64,000 bases of DNA, taken from a virus. Where the stretch lies: the IMG/VR virus record IMGVR_UViG_3300042197_004918, positions 109,818 through 173,817 of that record. One strand, written 5' to 3'. The notes beneath the pieces were generated by a model that was not told the DNA's origin, made no database searches, and was given only the letters and a program-made list of their open reading frames with translations. Of the stretch, positions 16,403 through 45,063 are shown piece after piece (within the stretch, counting starts at the first letter, position 1; each line of letters starts with the position of its first letter). The position numbers and the translations under genes were made by a program.

Positions 16403-16606
16403 TTTTTGATTTCGGGTGTATATGACACAACGAATTACGTATATTTGTGTCAAAATGTGGAATGGATTGGGCACGAAACTCCGAATTGCACTGACCAATC
16501 ACACTCGAATTTTGAATCTATGTTGGGGCACGGTAGGCTCCGATGTAAGTAGAGGTCGCGGGTGGTGCCCTCGGATGGGTTCAAGTCCCAGACCACCAAA
16601 TTTCAT
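16403..16606 (+). other. spacer with tRNA-like acceptor/T-arm fragment
   Basis: No ORF. At 16561-16597 GGTGGT pairs with ACCACC around GGG-TTCAAGT-CCC, i.e. an acceptor stem joined straight to a T-arm; GGGGCAC/GTGCCCT (16525-16571) is an alternative 7-bp pairing. Likely tRNA remnant. Confidence 0.4.
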
Positions 16607-16933: not shown

Positions 16934-17010
16934 GGTCACGTAGCCCAACGGCAGGAGGCGGGAGTCTTAGAAGCTCTACAGTGGGGGTTCAAATCCCTCC
17001 GTGACCACCA
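16934..17010 (+). tRNA. tRNA-Leu(TAG)
   Basis: Acceptor GGTCACG/CGTGACC, anticodon stem GGAGT/GCTCT with loop CTTAGAA, CCA encoded. Its 3' half also encodes, on the other strand, the C-terminus of the HNH protein. Confidence 0.88.
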
Positions 17011-17431
17011 TTTTGTTTTTTCTTCTCCAGTTTGGTGTTATGGAATGGCAATTAGGACATAGAAGTTTTAAGTTTTGGTTTTGATTATTTTTCTTGTTTC
17101 CATCCACATGATGAACCTCAAGCGTTATTGGTTCTCCCAACCAATCCGCAGTCGAGCATCGTTCGCATTTTAATCCTCTCTCTTTAATGAGACAGTTTCT
17201 ACGAGCGGTTGCGGAAGAATAATCTTCTAAAGATTTCAAAGATTTACCCTTATTCCACAGTTGATGTGAAAAATGACTTATATCAAGATTCAATCGTTCA
17301 ATATGAAGTTTAACGGACCCCTGAGTCCCGCCGGCTTGAACTAATCCAAGATTTTTCAAAACTTGACTATAAGCACGACTTTTGGAAACAGCAACTTTTA
17401 ATTCTTCGTCTGAGTATGTTCTTTTTTTCAT
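16976..17431 (-). CDS. HNH homing endonuclease, antisense, ending inside tRNA-Leu
   Basis: 151 residues from ATG 17431, which follows a TATTTAT box by 4 nt. CERCSTADW, then LEVHHVDGNKKNNQNQNLKLLCPNCHS gives a complete HNH motif with the second zinc CxxC. The N-terminal part (YSDEELKVAVSKSRAYSQVLKNLGL) is a helix-turn-helix-like DNA-binding segment. The final residues (VTEGFEPPL) are the antisense translation of the tRNA-Leu(TAG) T-arm and anticodon region, and the stop codon lies in the tRNA. Freestanding endonuclease of the kind that drives gene mobility. Confidence 0.88.
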   Translation of the reverse strand: MKKRTYSDEELKVAVSKSRAYSQVLKNLGLVQAGGTQGSVKLHIERLNLDISHFSHQLWNKGKSLKSLEDYSSATARRNCLIKERGLKCERCSTADWLGEPITLEVHHVDGNKKNNQNQNLKLLCPNCHSITPNWRRKNKMVVTEGFEPPL

Positions 17432-17435
17432 ATCA

Positions 17436-17442
17436 ATAAATA
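17436..17442 (-). promoter_or_regulatory. TATTTAT box of the HNH gene
   Basis: Minus-strand TATTTAT, 4 nt before ATG 17431. Confidence 0.45.
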
Positions 17443-17487
17443 TGAAACGGTAGACGAATAACACAATATTTATGTGTCAACCATTTT

Positions 17488-17731
17488 GAAAACGTGAGCG
17501 TGATAAAACGCAATGGGAACTAGACCACAACGAACCGGGAAGAAATGAAAGGTCGATAAACTATAGTTCTCATGTCGATTGAGGCGGTGCGATAATCCGA
17601 TGGCGAGCGGACGCTCGTTGTGATTGGAAACAATCATACTATGGGGAACTAAGCGGTGATATATCACAAGGCACCCATAGCGCAGGGCCAGTCTTAGACA
17701 CATACGGGTCCGAACCCCGTCGTTTTCACCA
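17488..17731 (+). tRNA. interrupted tRNA with ~150-nt insert in anticodon loop
   Basis: 5' acceptor GAAAACG (17488-17494), D-stem GCG/CGC and anticodon stem ATGGG (17513-17517). 3' anticodon stem CCCAT (17674-17678), a 25-nt variable region, T-arm ACGGG-TCCGAAC-CCCGT, acceptor CGTTTTC, A73 and CCA at 17729-17731. Spacing of T-arm, acceptor and CCA is exactly canonical. The ~150-nt insert between the two anticodon half-stems carries helix GAACTA/TAGTTC, as a group I-type intron core would, but I could not trace a full P3-P9 core. Amino acid cannot be assigned. Confidence 0.5.
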
Positions 17732-17740
17732 TTTTGAAGT

Positions 17741-17785
17741 AGTAGGCTTAGAAGCAGCCATCTTTAATCAGCGAATCGAAACGCT
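17741..17785 (+). ncRNA. 23S rRNA GTPase-centre-like element, copy 1
   Basis: 17745-17762 reads GGCTTAGAAGCAGCCATC, identical to the universally conserved helix 43 segment of 23S rRNA (E. coli ~1062-1079, thiostrepton loop with A1067). It is followed by TTTAA and a hairpin CAGCG-AATCGAAA-CGCTG where helix 44 would be. The rest of the rRNA is absent. Confidence 0.6.
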
Positions 17786-17969
17786 GGCGACGACGCCTCC
17801 GTGCAACACCGACATTACGATTGGATGTTGTGAACGAGGTGATACATAAGAAGATATAGAGAGATAATAGTCTTGTGTATTGCCGTCCAGTATCTCCGCA
17901 GAAAGTAAACGGATACTCCGTAACTGGTAAGGTCCAATTATTCCTTGGCGTAAAAGCAGACTTCAATAT
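17786..17969 (+). other. spacer RNA downstream of GTPase-centre-like copy 1
   Basis: About 180 nt without ORF or tRNA between the 23S-like element and tRNA-Pro; hairpins such as GGATACT-CCGTAACT can be drawn but no family is recognised. Confidence 0.35.
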
Positions 17970-18044
17970 CCATCCGTCGCCTAACTTGGTATGGCATCTC
18001 ATTTGGGGTGAGAAATAATCTCGGTTCAAATCCGGGCGGGTGGA
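17970..18044 (+). tRNA. tRNA-Pro(TGG), copy 2
   Basis: Acceptor CCATCCG/CGGGTGG, anticodon stem TCTCA/TGAGA with loop TTTGGGG, T-arm CTCGG-TTCAAAT-CCGGG. Tail A-CC-T, CCA incomplete. Confidence 0.85.
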
Positions 18045-18058
18045 CCTGATTAGAAGAA

Positions 18059-18100
18059 AGTAGGCTTAGAAGCAGCCATCTTTTAAAAAGTGACGAGTGG
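18059..18100 (+). ncRNA. 23S rRNA GTPase-centre-like element, copy 2
   Basis: The first 25 nt (18059-18083) are identical to copy 1 at 17741, including the 18-nt helix 43 match; sequence then diverges (TTTTAAAAAGTGACG). A CGTAAC stretch occurs 50 nt on (18131), where a helix-44-like loop might be. Confidence 0.55.
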
Positions 18101-18320
18101 AAAAAGTATCTGTTGCAACAGAGAAATAAGCGTAACGGGTTTGTCAAGTCCCCGACGTATAACCACAGGGAATATAAATCCAAAAAACGATGTAAATAGT
18201 TACGGTGGGACAAGCAAGGTTGACCAACTAATGTAGAATAACGAGTGTCTAAGGGGTTCTACAAATGACTATTTTACCCTTTAACAGTCTTTGGCGTCAT
18301 AGCATACTTCTAATCTTTAT
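18101..18320 (+). other. spacer RNA
   Basis: 220 nt between the second 23S-like element and tRNA-Trp. TCTGTTGCAACAGA is a perfect hairpin; no tRNA, ORF or family recognised otherwise. Confidence 0.35.
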
Positions 18321-18391
18321 AGCGTGGCTACTGGGTAGTGCGGAAACTCCAAATCTCTGCTTCGTCGGTTCGATTCCGACTCACGCTGCCA
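18321..18391 (+). tRNA. tRNA-Trp(CCA)
   Basis: Acceptor AGCGTGG/TCACGCT with G73 as in Trp tRNAs, anticodon loop CTCCAAA on stem GGAAA/TCTCT (one mismatch), T-arm GTCGG-TTCGATT-CCGAC, CCA encoded. Confidence 0.8.
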
Positions 18392-18758: not shown

Positions 18759-19018
18759 CAGTTTAACACGGTCGATCTATAGCGGGTGTAGAAATACATC
18801 TGAGGAAGTTCGCGCCACTAAAGCAGTTGATTGGGAGAATCGGCCGAGAGCAGAAATGCCGGTCGCAAAGACAGCCGATTCGTTAATACCACACAATAAG
18901 TGCAAGCCAAACAGAGCCGAGGGTAGTGCTTCCCGTTATGGTAGGCTCGGGTTGGTGCATAGTCAAATTATAGAATAAAACAGAAGCGCGGCTACATGAT
19001 ATGTTAAACCATTTTTGA
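18759..19018 (+). other. structured spacer
   Basis: 260 nt without ORF or tRNA. GCCGAGGGTAG...GTAGGCTCGGG and GATTGGGAGAATC-type inverted repeats suggest folded RNA. No family recognised. Confidence 0.4.
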
Positions 19019-19807: not shown

Positions 19808-19884
19808 GGTCAAGTGATGTAATTGGAAAACATCGTTTACTCAAAATAAACGTTTTGTGGGTTCAACTCCCATCTTGACTACCA
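19808..19884 (+). tRNA. tRNA-Leu(CAA), copy 2
   Basis: Acceptor GGTCAAG/CTTGACT, anticodon stem GTTTA/TAAAC with loop CTCAAAA, CCA encoded. D-arm identical to copy 1 at 15788 (TGATGTAATTGG). Confidence 0.82.
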
Positions 19885-20503
19885 ATTTCTTTGCTCGTCG
19901 GTAGTTTCGTCCGTTCTCAAGTCCGACCTTTTTAAGAGCTTGGTGGATATTTTCCGAAGATTTTAACGATTCAATCAACTCTTCATCAGAAACATTTCTT
20001 TTGATTTTATTTCTTCCACCATAAGTGGGTGTTATGGAATGACAGTTCGGACACAACAATCTTAGATTTTCACGAGTATTGTTTCTTCTGTCTCCGTTAA
20101 TATGGTCTAATTGAAGAGACAGTTTAACCCCATTCCAACTATCAATTCCACACAAACATTTGTCGGATTGTTCAGATGAAATCAAAGATTTGATAACGTT
20201 TTTACTTAAAAGTTCAAATGGAGTTTTGGAAATTCTATCGTCTAAAGATTTCCGAGAAGCTATAACCGCCTTAATTCTATCATCGTTTGTAAAAACTTTT
20301 CGTCTTGAGTCAAACCCCGAAACGAATCCTCTGCCGGGGGATGATTTACCTGTCAAGGTTTTAGACACCTTTTCGTTTATCTCCTTTCTCTTATTTTTGG
20401 TTGCAAACGACCTAGAACATTTAATAGAACAGAATCGTCCGCTTCCAATAATAATTGAAAAGTCGGAATTACAATTTTCACAAGATTTTATCACAGAGTT
20501 CAT
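19841..20503 (-). CDS. HNH homing endonuclease, antisense, ending inside tRNA-Leu
   Basis: 220 residues from ATG 20503, 6 nt after a TATTTAT box. N-terminal zinc finger CENCNSDF ... CSIKC, then NUMOD-like basic helices, an HNH core LQLDHINGDRRNNTRENLRLLCPNCHS and a C-terminal helix-turn-helix segment (SDEELIESLKSSENIHQALKKVGL) like the one at the N-terminus of the 16976 protein. The last ~14 residues (VVKMGVEPTKRLF) are read from the antisense of tRNA-Leu(CAA). A nuclease cutting tRNA-Leu alleles that lack the insert is the natural guess. Confidence 0.88.
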   Translation of the reverse strand: MNSVIKSCENCNSDFSIIIGSGRFCSIKCSRSFATKNKRKEINEKVSKTLTGKSSPGRGFVSGFDSRRKVFTNDDRIKAVIASRKSLDDRISKTPFELLSKNVIKSLISSEQSDKCLCGIDSWNGVKLSLQLDHINGDRRNNTRENLRLLCPNCHSITPTYGGRNKIKRNVSDEELIESLKSSENIHQALKKVGLENGRNYRRAKKLVVKMGVEPTKRLF

Positions 20504-20509
20504 ATAGAC

Positions 20510-20516
20510 ATAAATA
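20510..20516 (-). promoter_or_regulatory. TATTTAT box of the second HNH gene
   Basis: Minus-strand TATTTAT, 6 nt before ATG 20503. Confidence 0.45.
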
Positions 20517-20547
20517 TATCTCTGTAGGTTCAAAAGCAAAAATATTT

Positions 20548-20623
20548 GCGGATGTAGCTCAACTGGCAGAGCGCTTGCCTTCCAAGCAGGCTGTTGTGGG
20601 TTCAACTCCCATCATCCGCTCCA
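20548..20623 (+). tRNA. tRNA-Gly(TCC)
   Basis: Acceptor GCGGATG/CATCCGC, TAGCTCAACTGG D-arm, anticodon stem CTTGC/GCAGG with loop CTTCCAA, CCA encoded; its final A is the A of the next gene's ATG. Confidence 0.93.
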
Positions 20624-24999: not shown

Positions 25000-25224
25000 G
25001 TGTTTCACTTCAACAAGGGTCACCTGGCCAATCCAGAGATTCCTATGTGGGTGTTAAAAACAAAAGGCGAAAGCTACTATGTGAATCACGTCACCGCGAG
25101 TTGTTCTTGGACAACCAAGGAAACTCCCGACAATCCTACAACCAAAGGTTCTTTGAAGTTTAAGAACGTGGATGTGGAAATCAGTGAAGATAGAGAAGCG
25201 ACAATTTTTGCGTCTGTAGTTTAA
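25000..25224 (+). CDS. conserved-looking small phage protein
   Basis: 74 residues, GTG start. Segments NPEIPMWVLKTKGESYYVNHV and TTKGSLKFKNVDVEI look beta-rich and conserved-type. The stop lies inside the next tRNA. Function unknown. Confidence 0.65.
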   Translation: MFHFNKGHLANPEIPMWVLKTKGESYYVNHVTASCSWTTKETPDNPTTKGSLKFKNVDVEISEDREATIFASVV

Positions 25225-25284
25225 TGGTCAGAACTGGCGCCTCTAAAACGCCGTGTGTGGGTTCGACTCCCATTGGACGCACCA
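25210..25284 (+). tRNA. candidate amber suppressor tRNA (CTA)
   Basis: Acceptor GCGTCTG/TGGACGC, D-arm GTTT-AATGGTCAG-AAC, anticodon stem GGCGC/ACGCC (C-A mismatch at the loop) with loop CTCTAAA, T-arm GTGGG-TTCGACT-CCCAT, CCA encoded. With T33 the anticodon reads CTA, which decodes UAG. If the loop is shifted by one it would read TCT (Arg), but that breaks the stem. Confidence 0.65.
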
Positions 25285-25556: not shown

Positions 25557-26540
25557 AAGGTTAGTTGAGTGAACACGAAAGACCTTAGATTAAAAACTCA
25601 ACTGTATGATTGATACACAAATTAATCCGTTTACTGGTGACGATAGTGCGGTAAGACCGATGTGGGGTTGATTTAATCCACGTAGTTTTGAGGTGACTTA
25701 TCATCCTCACGTTTTGTTGATTGTTCTTTGTAAGTAGAATTTGGGAGGCCTGACTCCCTTCAAGATAAACCGTCGTAAGACGGCTAAAGCAGAAACCCCC
25801 TAACGGGACTGCGCCACAGTAATGTGGACACTCAGGCAACTGACGAATCAGTGTCTTTCACTCAAAAGGTGGAAGTATGTCTGAAGCTGGATTGGTAAAT
25901 GGTGATTGAGGGTAACACTGTAAATCATCTACTAACGGTACCGCCGAGCACTACTAATTCCTAACGGAACAGCCAAGAATAAGATTCAAGTCAAACGTAT
26001 AGATACAAGTCCGCAAGCAAGTGTTTATATGTAGAATGATAGAGAGTGGCCCAGGGTAACCGAGGACATAATCTTGAAATTCGGTGAAGTATCCGCAAGA
26101 GAAACACAAATGGTGTGTGGTATATTGGTTCCCAAAAGGAATTGATGTCACAAGCAACGCACGTCATTGTTAGGTGCATATTATATCATTGTTAGATAAA
26201 CTATATACAAAAAAGCCAAGTCGTTGCTTGTGTTCGTCGAAAAGAACGTAACTCTGAGGCCGTAAGGTAACTCAGACAACGAAGCGCTCGCAAGGTGTTA
26301 GTTGTTGATCCGAGTTTGGACGTGGTCCGCAAGACCTAATTGCTCGCAAGGCAACCGTTTGAATAGAGGTTGATTAGATGGACATTAAAGATGAAAAGCC
26401 GCATCTCTAAAAAGGCCGTTCTGTCAAATACAGACATAAACCGTAAGGTTGTGGATGTGGATACGTTGGGAAAGCAGCCCGCAAGGTTGTAATAATCCAA
26501 TCAAAGGTTGACACGAAACACTGTAGTCTCAGGTTTCATT
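25557..26540 (+). ncRNA. giant ornate RNA (GOLLD/ROOL-like candidate)
   Basis: About 980 nt with no ORF of note, own promoter, between tRNAs. Many helices can be read directly: AGTTGAGT/ACTCAACT at the 5' end, CCGTC-GTAA-GACGG, CCAC-AGTAAT-GTGG, an 11-bp perfect helix CACAAGCAACG/CGTTGCTTGTG (26149 and 26222), GGTC-CGCAA-GACC, AACC-GTAA-GGTT and several more capped by GCAA or GTAA. Size, ornate folding and place in a phage tRNA array are the known features of the GOLLD and ROOL RNA classes, which form large RNA multimers; class membership is not shown here. Confidence 0.6.
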
Positions 26541-31484: not shown

Positions 31485-32918
31485 ATGAATGCTAACGAAA
31501 ATATTATCCTTTTAACGGATAGCTACAAAGTCGGACACCACAATATGTATCCGACAGGCACACAGAATGTTTACAGCTACTTTGAGAGCCGTAAAGGTGC
31601 CAAATTCAACGAAACCGTCTTCTTCGGGCTCCAAGCATACTTGAAAAAGTATTTTGCTGGAGTCGTCGTGACTCAGACCGACATTGACAAGGCGGACGAG
31701 TTTTGCAAAGAACACTTCCTTGGAATGAATTTCTTTAATCGTGCCATGTGGCAACGTATTGTTGACGTTCACAATGGAAAACTTCCTCTCCGGATTATGG
31801 CTGTCAAAGAAGGAACTCCCGTTCCGGTCGGCAACGTCTTGATGACGGTTGAGGCCACGGACGAGACGATTAACCCTGAGACTGGTAACGCTTATTTCGC
31901 TCCTCTTACAAATGTGTTTGAAACCATCTTGACTCACGTTTGGCACCCAAGCAATGTCGCCACTATCAGTCGGGACATCAAGAAACACTTGAAGGCTGGT
32001 TTCGATAAAACGGTTCCCGACGAATTGGGTTGGTTACTTGACTATATGCTCCACGATTTCGGTTTCCGTGGAGTAAGCTCGGTTGAATCGGCTGGAATGG
32101 GTGGTGCAGGACATTTGGTTAATTTCAAGGGAACAGATACCCTCGTCGCAATCACTTATGCCCGGCGTTATTACAACACAACTGAAATGGTGGCTCACAG
32201 CGTTGCTGCCACGGAACACAGTGTTATGACCGCAGAAGGGCCTGCTGGCGAGTTTAAGGTGGTTGAGAAGTTGATTAAAGACTATCCCGCCGGCATCCTT
32301 TCGGTTGTCAGCGACAGTTACGACATTGAGAACGCCATCAGACAGTATGGAACTACATACAAAGAGGCTATCCTTGGACGAAATGACGGTGCTAAGTTTG
32401 TTATTCGTCCGGACAGCCCTCGGTTTGAGGACGATACGCCGGCAGCACAAATTCTATGGATTGCTCAGGAGCTTGAGAAGTATTTCGGTGCTACGGTGAA
32501 CGGTAAAGGATACAAGATGCTTCACCCGAAAGTTGGTATCATCTACGGAGATGGACTCAGCCGAGATGAAATCATCGAAGCAATCGACACGCTTATTGTG
32601 AATGGATACGCCGCAAGCACTTGTGTCTTCGGTATGGGTGGTGGATTGTTACAGAAACACAATCGGGACACTCAACGAAACGCTTTCAAGTGTTCGGCTC
32701 AGAAGCGTGGAGACAAGTGGGTTGAAATCTTCAAAGACCCAAAGGACAAGACCAAGGCATCGAAACGTGGTCGTCTCGCACTTGTCTTGGAAAACGGCCA
32801 GTATAAGACCGTGTTGGAGAGTGAAGCGAAAGACAATCTCTTGGAAGTCGTTTTTGAGAACGGTGTTTTGACCCGAGATATGACGTGGAACGAAGTTCGT
32901 AACAACGCAAAAGTATGA
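31485..32918 (+). CDS. nadV: nicotinamide phosphoribosyltransferase
   Basis: 477 residues, full length for NAMPT/NadV. LLTDSYKVGHHNMYP at the N-terminus, DFGFRGVSS, GTDTLVAITYARRYY, TEHSVMTAEG, VVSDSYDIENA, VIRPDSP and YGDGLSRDEI are the hallmark blocks for nicotinamide, PRPP and phosphate binding. Makes NMN from nicotinamide and PRPP, the step before the NMNAT encoded just upstream; the PRPP synthetase at 34907 can supply PRPP. Stop overlaps the next start by 4 nt. Confidence 0.97.
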   Translation: MNANENIILLTDSYKVGHHNMYPTGTQNVYSYFESRKGAKFNETVFFGLQAYLKKYFAGVVVTQTDIDKADEFCKEHFLGMNFFNRAMWQRIVDVHNGKLPLRIMAVKEGTPVPVGNVLMTVEATDETINPETGNAYFAPLTNVFETILTHVWHPSNVATISRDIKKHLKAGFDKTVPDELGWLLDYMLHDFGFRGVSSVESAGMGGAGHLVNFKGTDTLVAITYARRYYNTTEMVAHSVAATEHSVMTAEGPAGEFKVVEKLIKDYPAGILSVVSDSYDIENAIRQYGTTYKEAILGRNDGAKFVIRPDSPRFEDDTPAAQILWIAQELEKYFGATVNGKGYKMLHPKVGIIYGDGLSRDEIIEAIDTLIVNGYAASTCVFGMGGGLLQKHNRDTQRNAFKCSAQKRGDKWVEIFKDPKDKTKASKRGRLALVLENGQYKTVLESEAKDNLLEVVFENGVLTRDMTWNEVRNNAKV

Positions 32919-43632: not shown

Positions 43633-45063
43633 ATGTTAATGAAAGATTTATTGTTGGAAGGTATAAAGGAAACCGCTGCGTTGGATTATCTGACGCAGTT
43701 GGTTAAATCTGGCCCATTTAAGGGCAGGGTGTTCCTCGCGGGCGGAGCTGTCCGAGACATGGAACTCGGCAAAGACCCAAAGGATTTAGATGTAGTTGTC
43801 ACCGGAGGAATTGAAGCTGGGATGGAGTTTGCACGATGGGCGACTCGTCAGATGGGGAACTATAAAACGGATTCAAATCCCGTCGTCTTTCCACAATACG
43901 GAACCGCGAAGTTCACTTTACAGGGAATTACCCACAACGGAATTGATTTGAGTGATATAGACATCGAAGCTGTTGCTACCAGAAAAGAAAAATACTCTGA
44001 TGGCAGTCGTAAACCGGAGGTGACTTCTGGCGACTTGGCCGATGACGTAAATCGTAGAGATTTCACGGTCAACAGTCTATTGAAAGACTTGACCACGGGT
44101 GAAATTCTGGATTTGACCGGCAAGGGTAAAGACGACATCCGTAAGGGTATAGTTCAGACTCCCCTTAATCCAGACATAATCTTCACGGAAGACCCGCTTA
44201 GGATTTTGAGGGCCGCTAGATTTGCTATCAAATACGATTGGGATTTGCCATTGTTCATGGTGAGGGCCATGAAACGCAATTCCGCGAAGCTGAAAAACAT
44301 CAGTTTTGAAAGAATCAGAGACGAACTTGATAAGATGTTGCTGACCGGTTCTCCACACCGAGCCATCAAACTTTTGAAAATTACAGGTGTCTTGGAATAC
44401 GTTGTTCCTGAATTTAAGGCAGCCTACAAGATGACCCAAAACATACACCATAAGCACGACGTGTTTGCACATTCTATGGATGTATTAAGTAAAACCAAGC
44501 CTGTTCTTGTTCAACGGTTGATGGGACTTTTCCACGACATCGGTAAAACGGTGACTCGTAGCGTAACTCCTACGGGTGTTCATTTCTATGGCCACGAATA
44601 CGAGGGTGCCAAGATGGTTGCTGAGATAATGAAGAGGATGAAATACCCAAATGAGCTTATTAAGCAAGTTGTCCTTGGAGTCAACAGCCACATGAGGCTC
44701 AAATCTGGTGGACCGGATTCCTTTAAGTTAAGCGATAAGGCTTTGAGAAAGTTCAAGGTTGAGATGGGTGACGAAATAGAGAACATTTTGGATGTTATCC
44801 ACGCCGACAATATCAGTCACAGTGAGGCATCTAGTATGCCGGCTCAAATAGATAATATCAGAGAAAGGTTGTCTAACCTGTCAATCACAGCTGAGAAGCC
44901 AAAACTTCCGATAACCGGTGAGGATTTAAAACTAGCAGGAATTAAGCCAGGACCAATTTACTCTGAAATAATGAGTGCGGTCTTGGAGAAGTGGTATGAG
45001 AATCCGTCTATATCCAAAGAGGAGGCTTTGAACATCGCTAGAGAACTTTCCAAGAAAGTTTAA
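43633..45063 (+). CDS. CCA-adding enzyme / poly(A) polymerase family, with HD domain
   Basis: 476 residues. LAGGAVRDMELGKDPKDLDVVVTG (35-58) with D51-x-D53 metal pair, RRDFTVNSL, EDPLRILRAARFAIKY and SFERIRDELDKML are the head and neck motifs of class II CCA enzymes. HHKHDVFAHSMDVL ... LFHDIGK is a C-terminal HD phosphohydrolase domain as in E. coli-type enzymes. Completes or repairs tRNA 3' CCA ends; about nine tRNAs in the window lack a full encoded CCA. The start MLMKDLLLEGIKE carries an LLE site like the packaged-protein leaders, so the enzyme might even be injected. Confidence 0.92.
   Translation: MLMKDLLLEGIKETAALDYLTQLVKSGPFKGRVFLAGGAVRDMELGKDPKDLDVVVTGGIEAGMEFARWATRQMGNYKTDSNPVVFPQYGTAKFTLQGITHNGIDLSDIDIEAVATRKEKYSDGSRKPEVTSGDLADDVNRRDFTVNSLLKDLTTGEILDLTGKGKDDIRKGIVQTPLNPDIIFTEDPLRILRAARFAIKYDWDLPLFMVRAMKRNSAKLKNISFERIRDELDKMLLTGSPHRAIKLLKITGVLEYVVPEFKAAYKMTQNIHHKHDVFAHSMDVLSKTKPVLVQRLMGLFHDIGKTVTRSVTPTGVHFYGHEYEGAKMVAEIMKRMKYPNELIKQVVLGVNSHMRLKSGGPDSFKLSDKALRKFKVEMGDEIENILDVIHADNISHSEASSMPAQIDNIRERLSNLSITAEKPKLPITGEDLKLAGIKPGPIYSEIMSAVLEKWYENPSISKEEALNIARELSKKV

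Follow-up and report, generated by a model that had tools for sequence, protein, structure and literature searches.

Free-standing phage RNAs resembling the GTPase-associated centre of 23S rRNA and proposed to bind ribosomal protein uL11

Two elements resembling the GTPase-associated centre (GAC) of bacterial 23S rRNA are located in a viral tRNA array. On the basis of its sequence, each of them is a complete h42-h43-h44 three-way junction in which a large domain has been inserted into h44, between U1090 and G1091. Comparison with related elements establishes at the sequence level their architecture, their covariation, their near-restriction to viruses and their coupling to tRNAs. The element is probably a structured phage RNA acting in trans, an L11-binding mimic of the GAC that would either titrate L11 or use it as a handle.

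Two GAC-like junctions in a viral tRNA array

The window analysed here is a stretch of 64,000 nucleotides (positions 109,818 to 173,817 of the IMG/VR virus record IMGVR_UViG_3300042197_004918) and corresponds to the last 64 kb of this 173,817-base record, in which exactly two copies of the element are present. Their components are the following.

17734-17966 (+): putative GAC-mimic RNA copy 1, whole element (from the sequence, P1 register read by hand; tRNA-Pro starts at 17970)
17734-17740 (+): copy 1, 5' strand of P1 (h42-like), TTGAAGT, pairing with 17960-17966 (read by hand)
17741-17763 (+): copy 1, h43 hairpin (23S 1058-1080; sequence match)
17764-17772 (+): copy 1, junction strand TTAATCAGC (23S 1082-1090 region), C1087 pairing with G1102 (alignment, covariation)
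17773-17943 (+): copy 1, inserted domain, with basal stem GAAT/ATTC and the recurrent hairpin ACTCCGTAACTGGTAAGG
17947-17959 (+): copy 1, 3' part of h44, GGCGTAAAAGCAG (23S 1091-1102, preceded by one G; motif scan)
17960-17966 (+): copy 1, 3' strand of P1, ACTTCAA (read by hand)
17970-18046 (+): tRNA-Pro between the two copies (tRNA call)
18048-18315 (+): putative GAC-mimic RNA copy 2, whole element, lying between tRNA-Pro (gap of 1 nt) and tRNA-Trp at 18321 (gap of 5 nt)
18048-18056 (+): copy 2, 5' strand of P1, GATTAGAAG, pairing with CTTCTAATC at 18307-18315
18058-18082 (+): copy 2, h43 hairpin (23S 1057-1081; sequence match)
18083-18091 (+): copy 2, junction strand TTAAAAAGT (1082-1090), A1087 pairing with U1102
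18092-18289 (+): copy 2, inserted domain, with basal stem GAC/GTC
18293-18306 (+): copy 2, 3' part of h44, GGCGTCATAGCATA (23S 1091-1103, preceded by one G; motif scan)
18307-18315 (+): copy 2, 3' strand of P1, CTTCTAATC (complement of the 5' strand)

The sequence AGTAGGCTTAGAAGCAGCCATCTTT is identical over 25 nt at 17741-17765 and 18059-18083, as an earlier sequence-only reading of the window had noticed, and its assignment to the h43 of the GTPase-associated centre is borne out by an alignment of 33 nt of copy 2 with the E. coli 23S at 90.9%. The 21-mer GTAGGCTTAGAAGCAGCCATC, which equals E. coli 23S ~1059-1079 with position 1061 differing, occurs exactly twice in the window with up to 3 mismatches allowed, versus 0.00 occurrences expected from 100 shuffles, a similarity beyond chance level.

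The same reading considered that no other part of the rRNA was present, and that a hairpin beside copy 1 occupied the position of h44. Neither idea holds: an h44 (GGCGTnnnAGC) and an h42-like closing stem are found about 200 nt downstream of each copy, and the hairpin in question is the start of the inserted domain. On the + strand, the window contains the h44 sequence GGCGTNNNAGC only twice, at 17947 and 18293, located 185 and 213 nt downstream of the h43 of copy 1 and copy 2, respectively. In both copies, the strand that comes after the 3' side of h44 can pair with the nucleotides immediately 5' of h43. The combination of h43, distal h44 and closing strand in each copy argues for the whole junction, interrupted between the equivalents of 1090 and 1091 by an insert of 171 nt in copy 1 and 198 nt in copy 2. 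The proposal that a phage RNA mimics the GAC is in this way strongly supported, for the entire three-way junction rather than for h43 alone. The G1087-C1102 pair, otherwise near-invariant, has undergone different compensatory double changes, to C-G in copy 1 and to A-U in copy 2. Copy 1 is a member of a subclass in which the junction is one nucleotide shorter and lacks the 1082-1086 pair, which accounts for the shift by one of its P1 register relative to copy 2.

A viral family with covarying stems and conserved loops

A BLAST search of phage records detected the same h43 hairpin outside rRNA in the isolates pf16, UNO-G1W1, GAP32, CBB and XacN1. Placed side by side, these isolates display h43, a long insert, the h44 loop as TTTGGCGTAAYAGCnCAC or a close variant, and a strand complementary to the sequence preceding h43. 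In all, 146 distinct elements of the same architecture, nearly all of them viral, were collected from IMG/VR contigs and isolates. The two halves of the junction are tightly linked. Scanning IMG/VR with the h44 half returned at least 120 contigs, nearly all with an h43 upstream, and this hairpin lies within 450 nt upstream at 123 of the 132 parsed h44 sites. Among the nine other sites, four are too near the edge of the fetched sequence, four form one diverged group whose h43 reads GGGATTAATGGCGTCC (checked in two members) and one (L072) is maybe due to chance. The reciprocal scan of IMG/VR, anchored on h43 and the junction strand only, produced 62 contigs, 60 of them testable, and an h44 was found in all 60: with at most 3 mismatches out of 18 in 58 contigs (the best shuffled values being 5-9) and, by a wider search, at a distance of 21 nt in one of the remaining two and of 1.9 kb in the other.

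Host genomes were rejected as the source of the family, since about 85,000 species genomes yielded only 12 matches, of which 9 are real (with h43) and 3 due to chance; the one whose neighbours were read (L139) is surrounded by phage-like genes. No Rfam family reached its gathering score on any element tested, the weak LSU rRNA matches at h43 attaining 25-26 bits for a cut-off of 50. No prior description of a phage GAC mimic was found in the open-access papers searched.

The inserts vary from ~20 to 380 nt across members, with one case of 1.9 kb. A recurrent hairpin module, ACCCCGUAACUGGUAAGG, is present in about 30 of the 146 elements at a fixed 28-30 nt before h44, and copy 1 of the window carries it near 17918-17938. 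The inserts of another subgroup share GUGCGAAAUG...UGAUGUGC, and in L196 the two halves of the GAC element stand 1.9 kb apart, the insert possibly harbouring an intron or a mobile element. Such lengths and modules would suit an RNA whose head, bound to L11, serves for docking only, with the variable domain acting as the effector that recruits, for example, a phage factor or builds a particle; the titration of L11 would then be beside the point. This explanation appears improbable: no insert feature is common to all members, and there is no sign of a second partner. Other rRNA pieces were also sought in the inserts. A sarcin-ricin loop, suggested by AGTACGAGAGGA in L127 and by similar strings in two relatives, was rejected because a local stem GTACTAATG/CATTAGTAC explains it. 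The resemblance of the hairpin ACCCCGUAACUGGUAAGG to 23S ~1686 was of insufficient significance, and the 29 11-mers common to inserts and E. coli rRNAs represent no clear excess over the 11-31 found in shuffles.

The predicted fold was evaluated with a home-made covariation test on 88 non-redundant members (FastTree tree, substitutions re-dropped on the tree, APC-corrected G). The 16 top-scoring of all column pairs are predicted pairs (16/16), and the first ten exceed every value in 20 null alignments. The top pairs include P1, 1058-1080, 1057-1081, 1064-1074, the base of the insert and the junction pair 1082-1086, which is specific to the GAC and is UA in 44, CG in 21 and AU in 13 of the 88 members. 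A separate pair count on 36 members gave 92.8% paired positions, two-sided changes in 18 of 24 pairs, and a covariation score of 0.623, as against 0.148 for shuffled and a maximum of 0.193 for slid versions. Not only the stems of h43 and h44 but also their loops are kept. Positions 1059, 1060, 1066, 1071, 1072, 1077, 1084, 1085 and 1088 are invariant in 88/88; h43 has a UUAGAAGCA-type loop, with both U1060 and A1088 retained throughout. The pattern used in the first search predetermined the h44 columns, and the unbiased figures for this helix are those of the 58 members not selected on it, in which 1091-1093, 1098-1100 and 1103 are invariant and the pairs 1092-1099 and 1091-1100 closing the GUAAYA loop are present in 58/58. 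Position 1067, on the other hand, is A in 68 of the 88 members and G, C or T in the other 20, and 1068 and 1070 are variable too in this set.

These results bear directly on a trivial origin of the elements, whether chance similarity, rRNA contamination or a homing endonuclease target at the DNA level. Although HNH genes are present in the array and true 23S in some phage records, such an origin retains a practically negligible probability, given the covariation with conserved loops over 88 divergent members and the existence of more than 140 distinct elements; it is refuted by both covariation analyses. In addition, the true 23S sequences compared (E. coli and six host genomes) show neither the insert nor the TTTGGCGT sequence flanking h44. 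A true 23S, phage-borne or contaminating, was likewise rejected, the elements having neither the neighbouring 23S sequence nor the 14-nt h43-h44 spacing; L004 is a true case of this kind.

The resemblance to the bacterial GAC (h42-h44, ~1051-1108, the 58-nt L11-binding domain) extends to the h43 and h44 loops, the three-way junction, the 1082-1086 pair and the closing stem, with the same numbering position by position. Unlike the 23S domain, however, the phage element is free-standing, without the rest of 23S or continuity with domain II, and its h44 is interrupted in every member by 20-380 nt between 1090 and 1091. It also differs by an A instead of U at 1101, by the lack of conservation of A1067 and by an h42 reduced to a plain stem.

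Genomic context and downstream genes

The elements are closely associated with tRNA genes: 68 out of 111 are within 2 kb of tRNAs, all of which (367/367) are on the strand of the element, often separated from it by only 0-12 nt. In the window, the gaps to the flanking tRNA or tRNA-like genes are 3, 1 and 5 nt. Such near-zero distances suggest that the RNA, which would be transcribed together with the tRNA array, is most likely excised by the enzymes that process the neighbouring tRNAs, probably RNase P and the tRNA 3' processing machinery. A promoter and terminator scan of the tRNA array gave no clear signal over shuffles.

The 86 ORFs located downstream of the elements fall into 77 clusters, which argues against a common target gene in cis; combined with the uniform strand of the tRNAs, these unrelated genes argue for an RNA acting in trans. 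Ribosomal-protein leader RNAs that mimic rRNA, such as the L10 leader, are cis-acting, bacterial and located upstream of ribosomal-protein genes. The phage element would similarly be a second RNA imitating the rRNA site of a ribosomal protein, and some members, such as those of GAP32 and CBB, directly precede a coding gene, so that a leader sensing free L11 and controlling the next phage gene could be imagined. It is nevertheless very improbable, and regulation in cis was rejected, as many elements lie between tRNA genes and the family has no downstream gene in common. The family also differs from such leaders in being viral and located mostly among tRNAs. Moreover, a search for L11 alone found no such gene in 38 phage records, including this one and some that are possibly fragments, and a phage-encoded L11 was discarded as the partner on the same ground.

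GOLLD and ROOL are large, structured phage RNAs of unknown function found near tRNA islands (PMC12286853). The GAC elements share with them a location in phage tRNA arrays but are unrelated in sequence and structure and do not match the Rfam model of either. GOLLD is a separate gene of the same window, at 26108-26535 (+) (211 bits), directly followed by two tRNA-Ser genes.

Several other features of these arrays were recorded. A tRNA-like RNA without ARAGORN call is located at 17487-17732 (+), directly 5' of copy 1, with acceptor TGAAAACG..CGTTTTCACCA, T-arm ACGGGTCCGAACCCCGT and an insert of ~170 nt. Within the tRNA array, an RNase P RNA-like gene at 18766-19004 (+) matches RNaseP_arch below its gathering score (34 bits, E 3e-8) and retains the conserved segments GAGGAAGUUC and ACAGAAGCGCGGCUAC; this model had no match in 37 other phage records. 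Together with the genes for a tRNA nucleotidyltransferase of the CCA-adding type at 43633-45063 (+) and a nicotinamide phosphoribosyltransferase at 31485-32918 (+), it suggests a phage tRNA-maturation kit. The window also contains a weak tmRNA-like match at 16459-16598 (+) (13.4 bits, E 0.02), which includes a T-arm and a CCA-like end, a tRNA with the amber anticodon CTA at 25210-25284 (+), labelled Pyl by ARAGORN, and, in antisense orientation to the tRNA array, two genes for HNH endonucleases at 16976-17464 (-) and 19841-20605 (-). Elsewhere, GAC elements share their tRNA array with a tmRNA-like match in L042 (4144-4232 (-), 41 bits, E 4e-13) and with a Group I intron in L070 (2941-3164 (+), 70 bits).

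A putative uL11 site and its consequences for infection

The element reproduces the L11-binding GAC of 23S, that is the end of h42, h43, h44 and the 1082-1086 pair, with the variable domain of 20-380 nt placed in h44 between 1090 and 1091. We infer that the RNA would be transcribed and processed and that its head, folded like rRNA, would bind the host ribosomal protein uL11, with consequences for the host. The pattern of conservation is more consistent with selection on folding and on L11 recognition than on contacts with factors, tRNA or drugs. Among the candidate partners, uL11 appears to fit best, since the GAC core is invariant, while EF-G, RelA and A1067-modifying enzymes, as well as thiopeptides, fit less well with an A1067 replaced in 20/88. 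The kept positions would presumably be sufficient for the binding of L11, whose contacts with them are presumed here from crystal structures.

In the ribosome, the 58-nt rRNA domain is the L11 site (PMC4409310), and A1067 makes a stacking contact with the tRNA elbow in the RelA complex and is the determinant of resistance to thiostrepton (PMC5829649). Against the uL11 assignment, isolated GAC RNA is also able to bind EF-G (Munishkin & Wool 1997, as cited in PMC5829649). EF-G and A1067 methyltransferases are known to recognise this isolated RNA (PMC5829649, PMC4409310). The RNA could then be a decoy for another GAC ligand, such as a defence toxin, an rRNA-modifying enzyme, a thiopeptide antibiotic or a translational GTPase/RelA, absorbing it so that the ribosomes are spared. 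The preservation of the h43 and h44 loops alongside the stems agrees with a decoy, as do the arrays with tRNAs, which would fit an anti-defence RNA island. This alternative is rather unlikely, however, as A1067, the crucial residue both for thiostrepton and for contact with the elbow of the A-site tRNA in the RelA complex, is not maintained, and 1068 and 1070 vary as well. To our knowledge, no host defence enzyme attacking the GAC site has been described, which also counts against it.

If uL11 is indeed the ligand, two modes of action may be envisaged. The RNA could titrate free or newly made L11, leading to L11-poor ribosomes unable to activate RelA. As an abundant ribosomal protein would have to be captured, this mode would require an abundant RNA. 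Starved ribosomes cannot activate RelA without L11 (PMC7058999), and titration of this protein would thus, speculatively, blunt the stringent response. Alternatively, the variable domain could use L11 as its handle. It is conceivable, although the odds are somewhat against it, that this widespread class of phage RNA has a working L11 site and, in the course of infection, removes uL11 from some structure other than the ribosome or delivers it to one. RelA-dependent alarmone synthesis would in that case be blunted or phage-specific ribosomes made, so that a ribosomal protein would be hijacked at the level of RNA.

Binding of L11 would offer a concrete and testable route by which phages interfere with the stringent response or with the translation-factor site. 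It would also constitute a natural experiment, separating the GAC nucleotides needed for folding and L11 binding from those needed for ribosome function. Within the scope of Rfam and the open-access papers searched, from which a virus-encoded mimic of an rRNA domain of this kind is absent, the RNA domain is old and the gene not previously known: a free-standing, virus-encoded mimic of an rRNA domain with an inserted variable domain. Its existence points to phage tRNA islands as sites of RNA mimicry in general.
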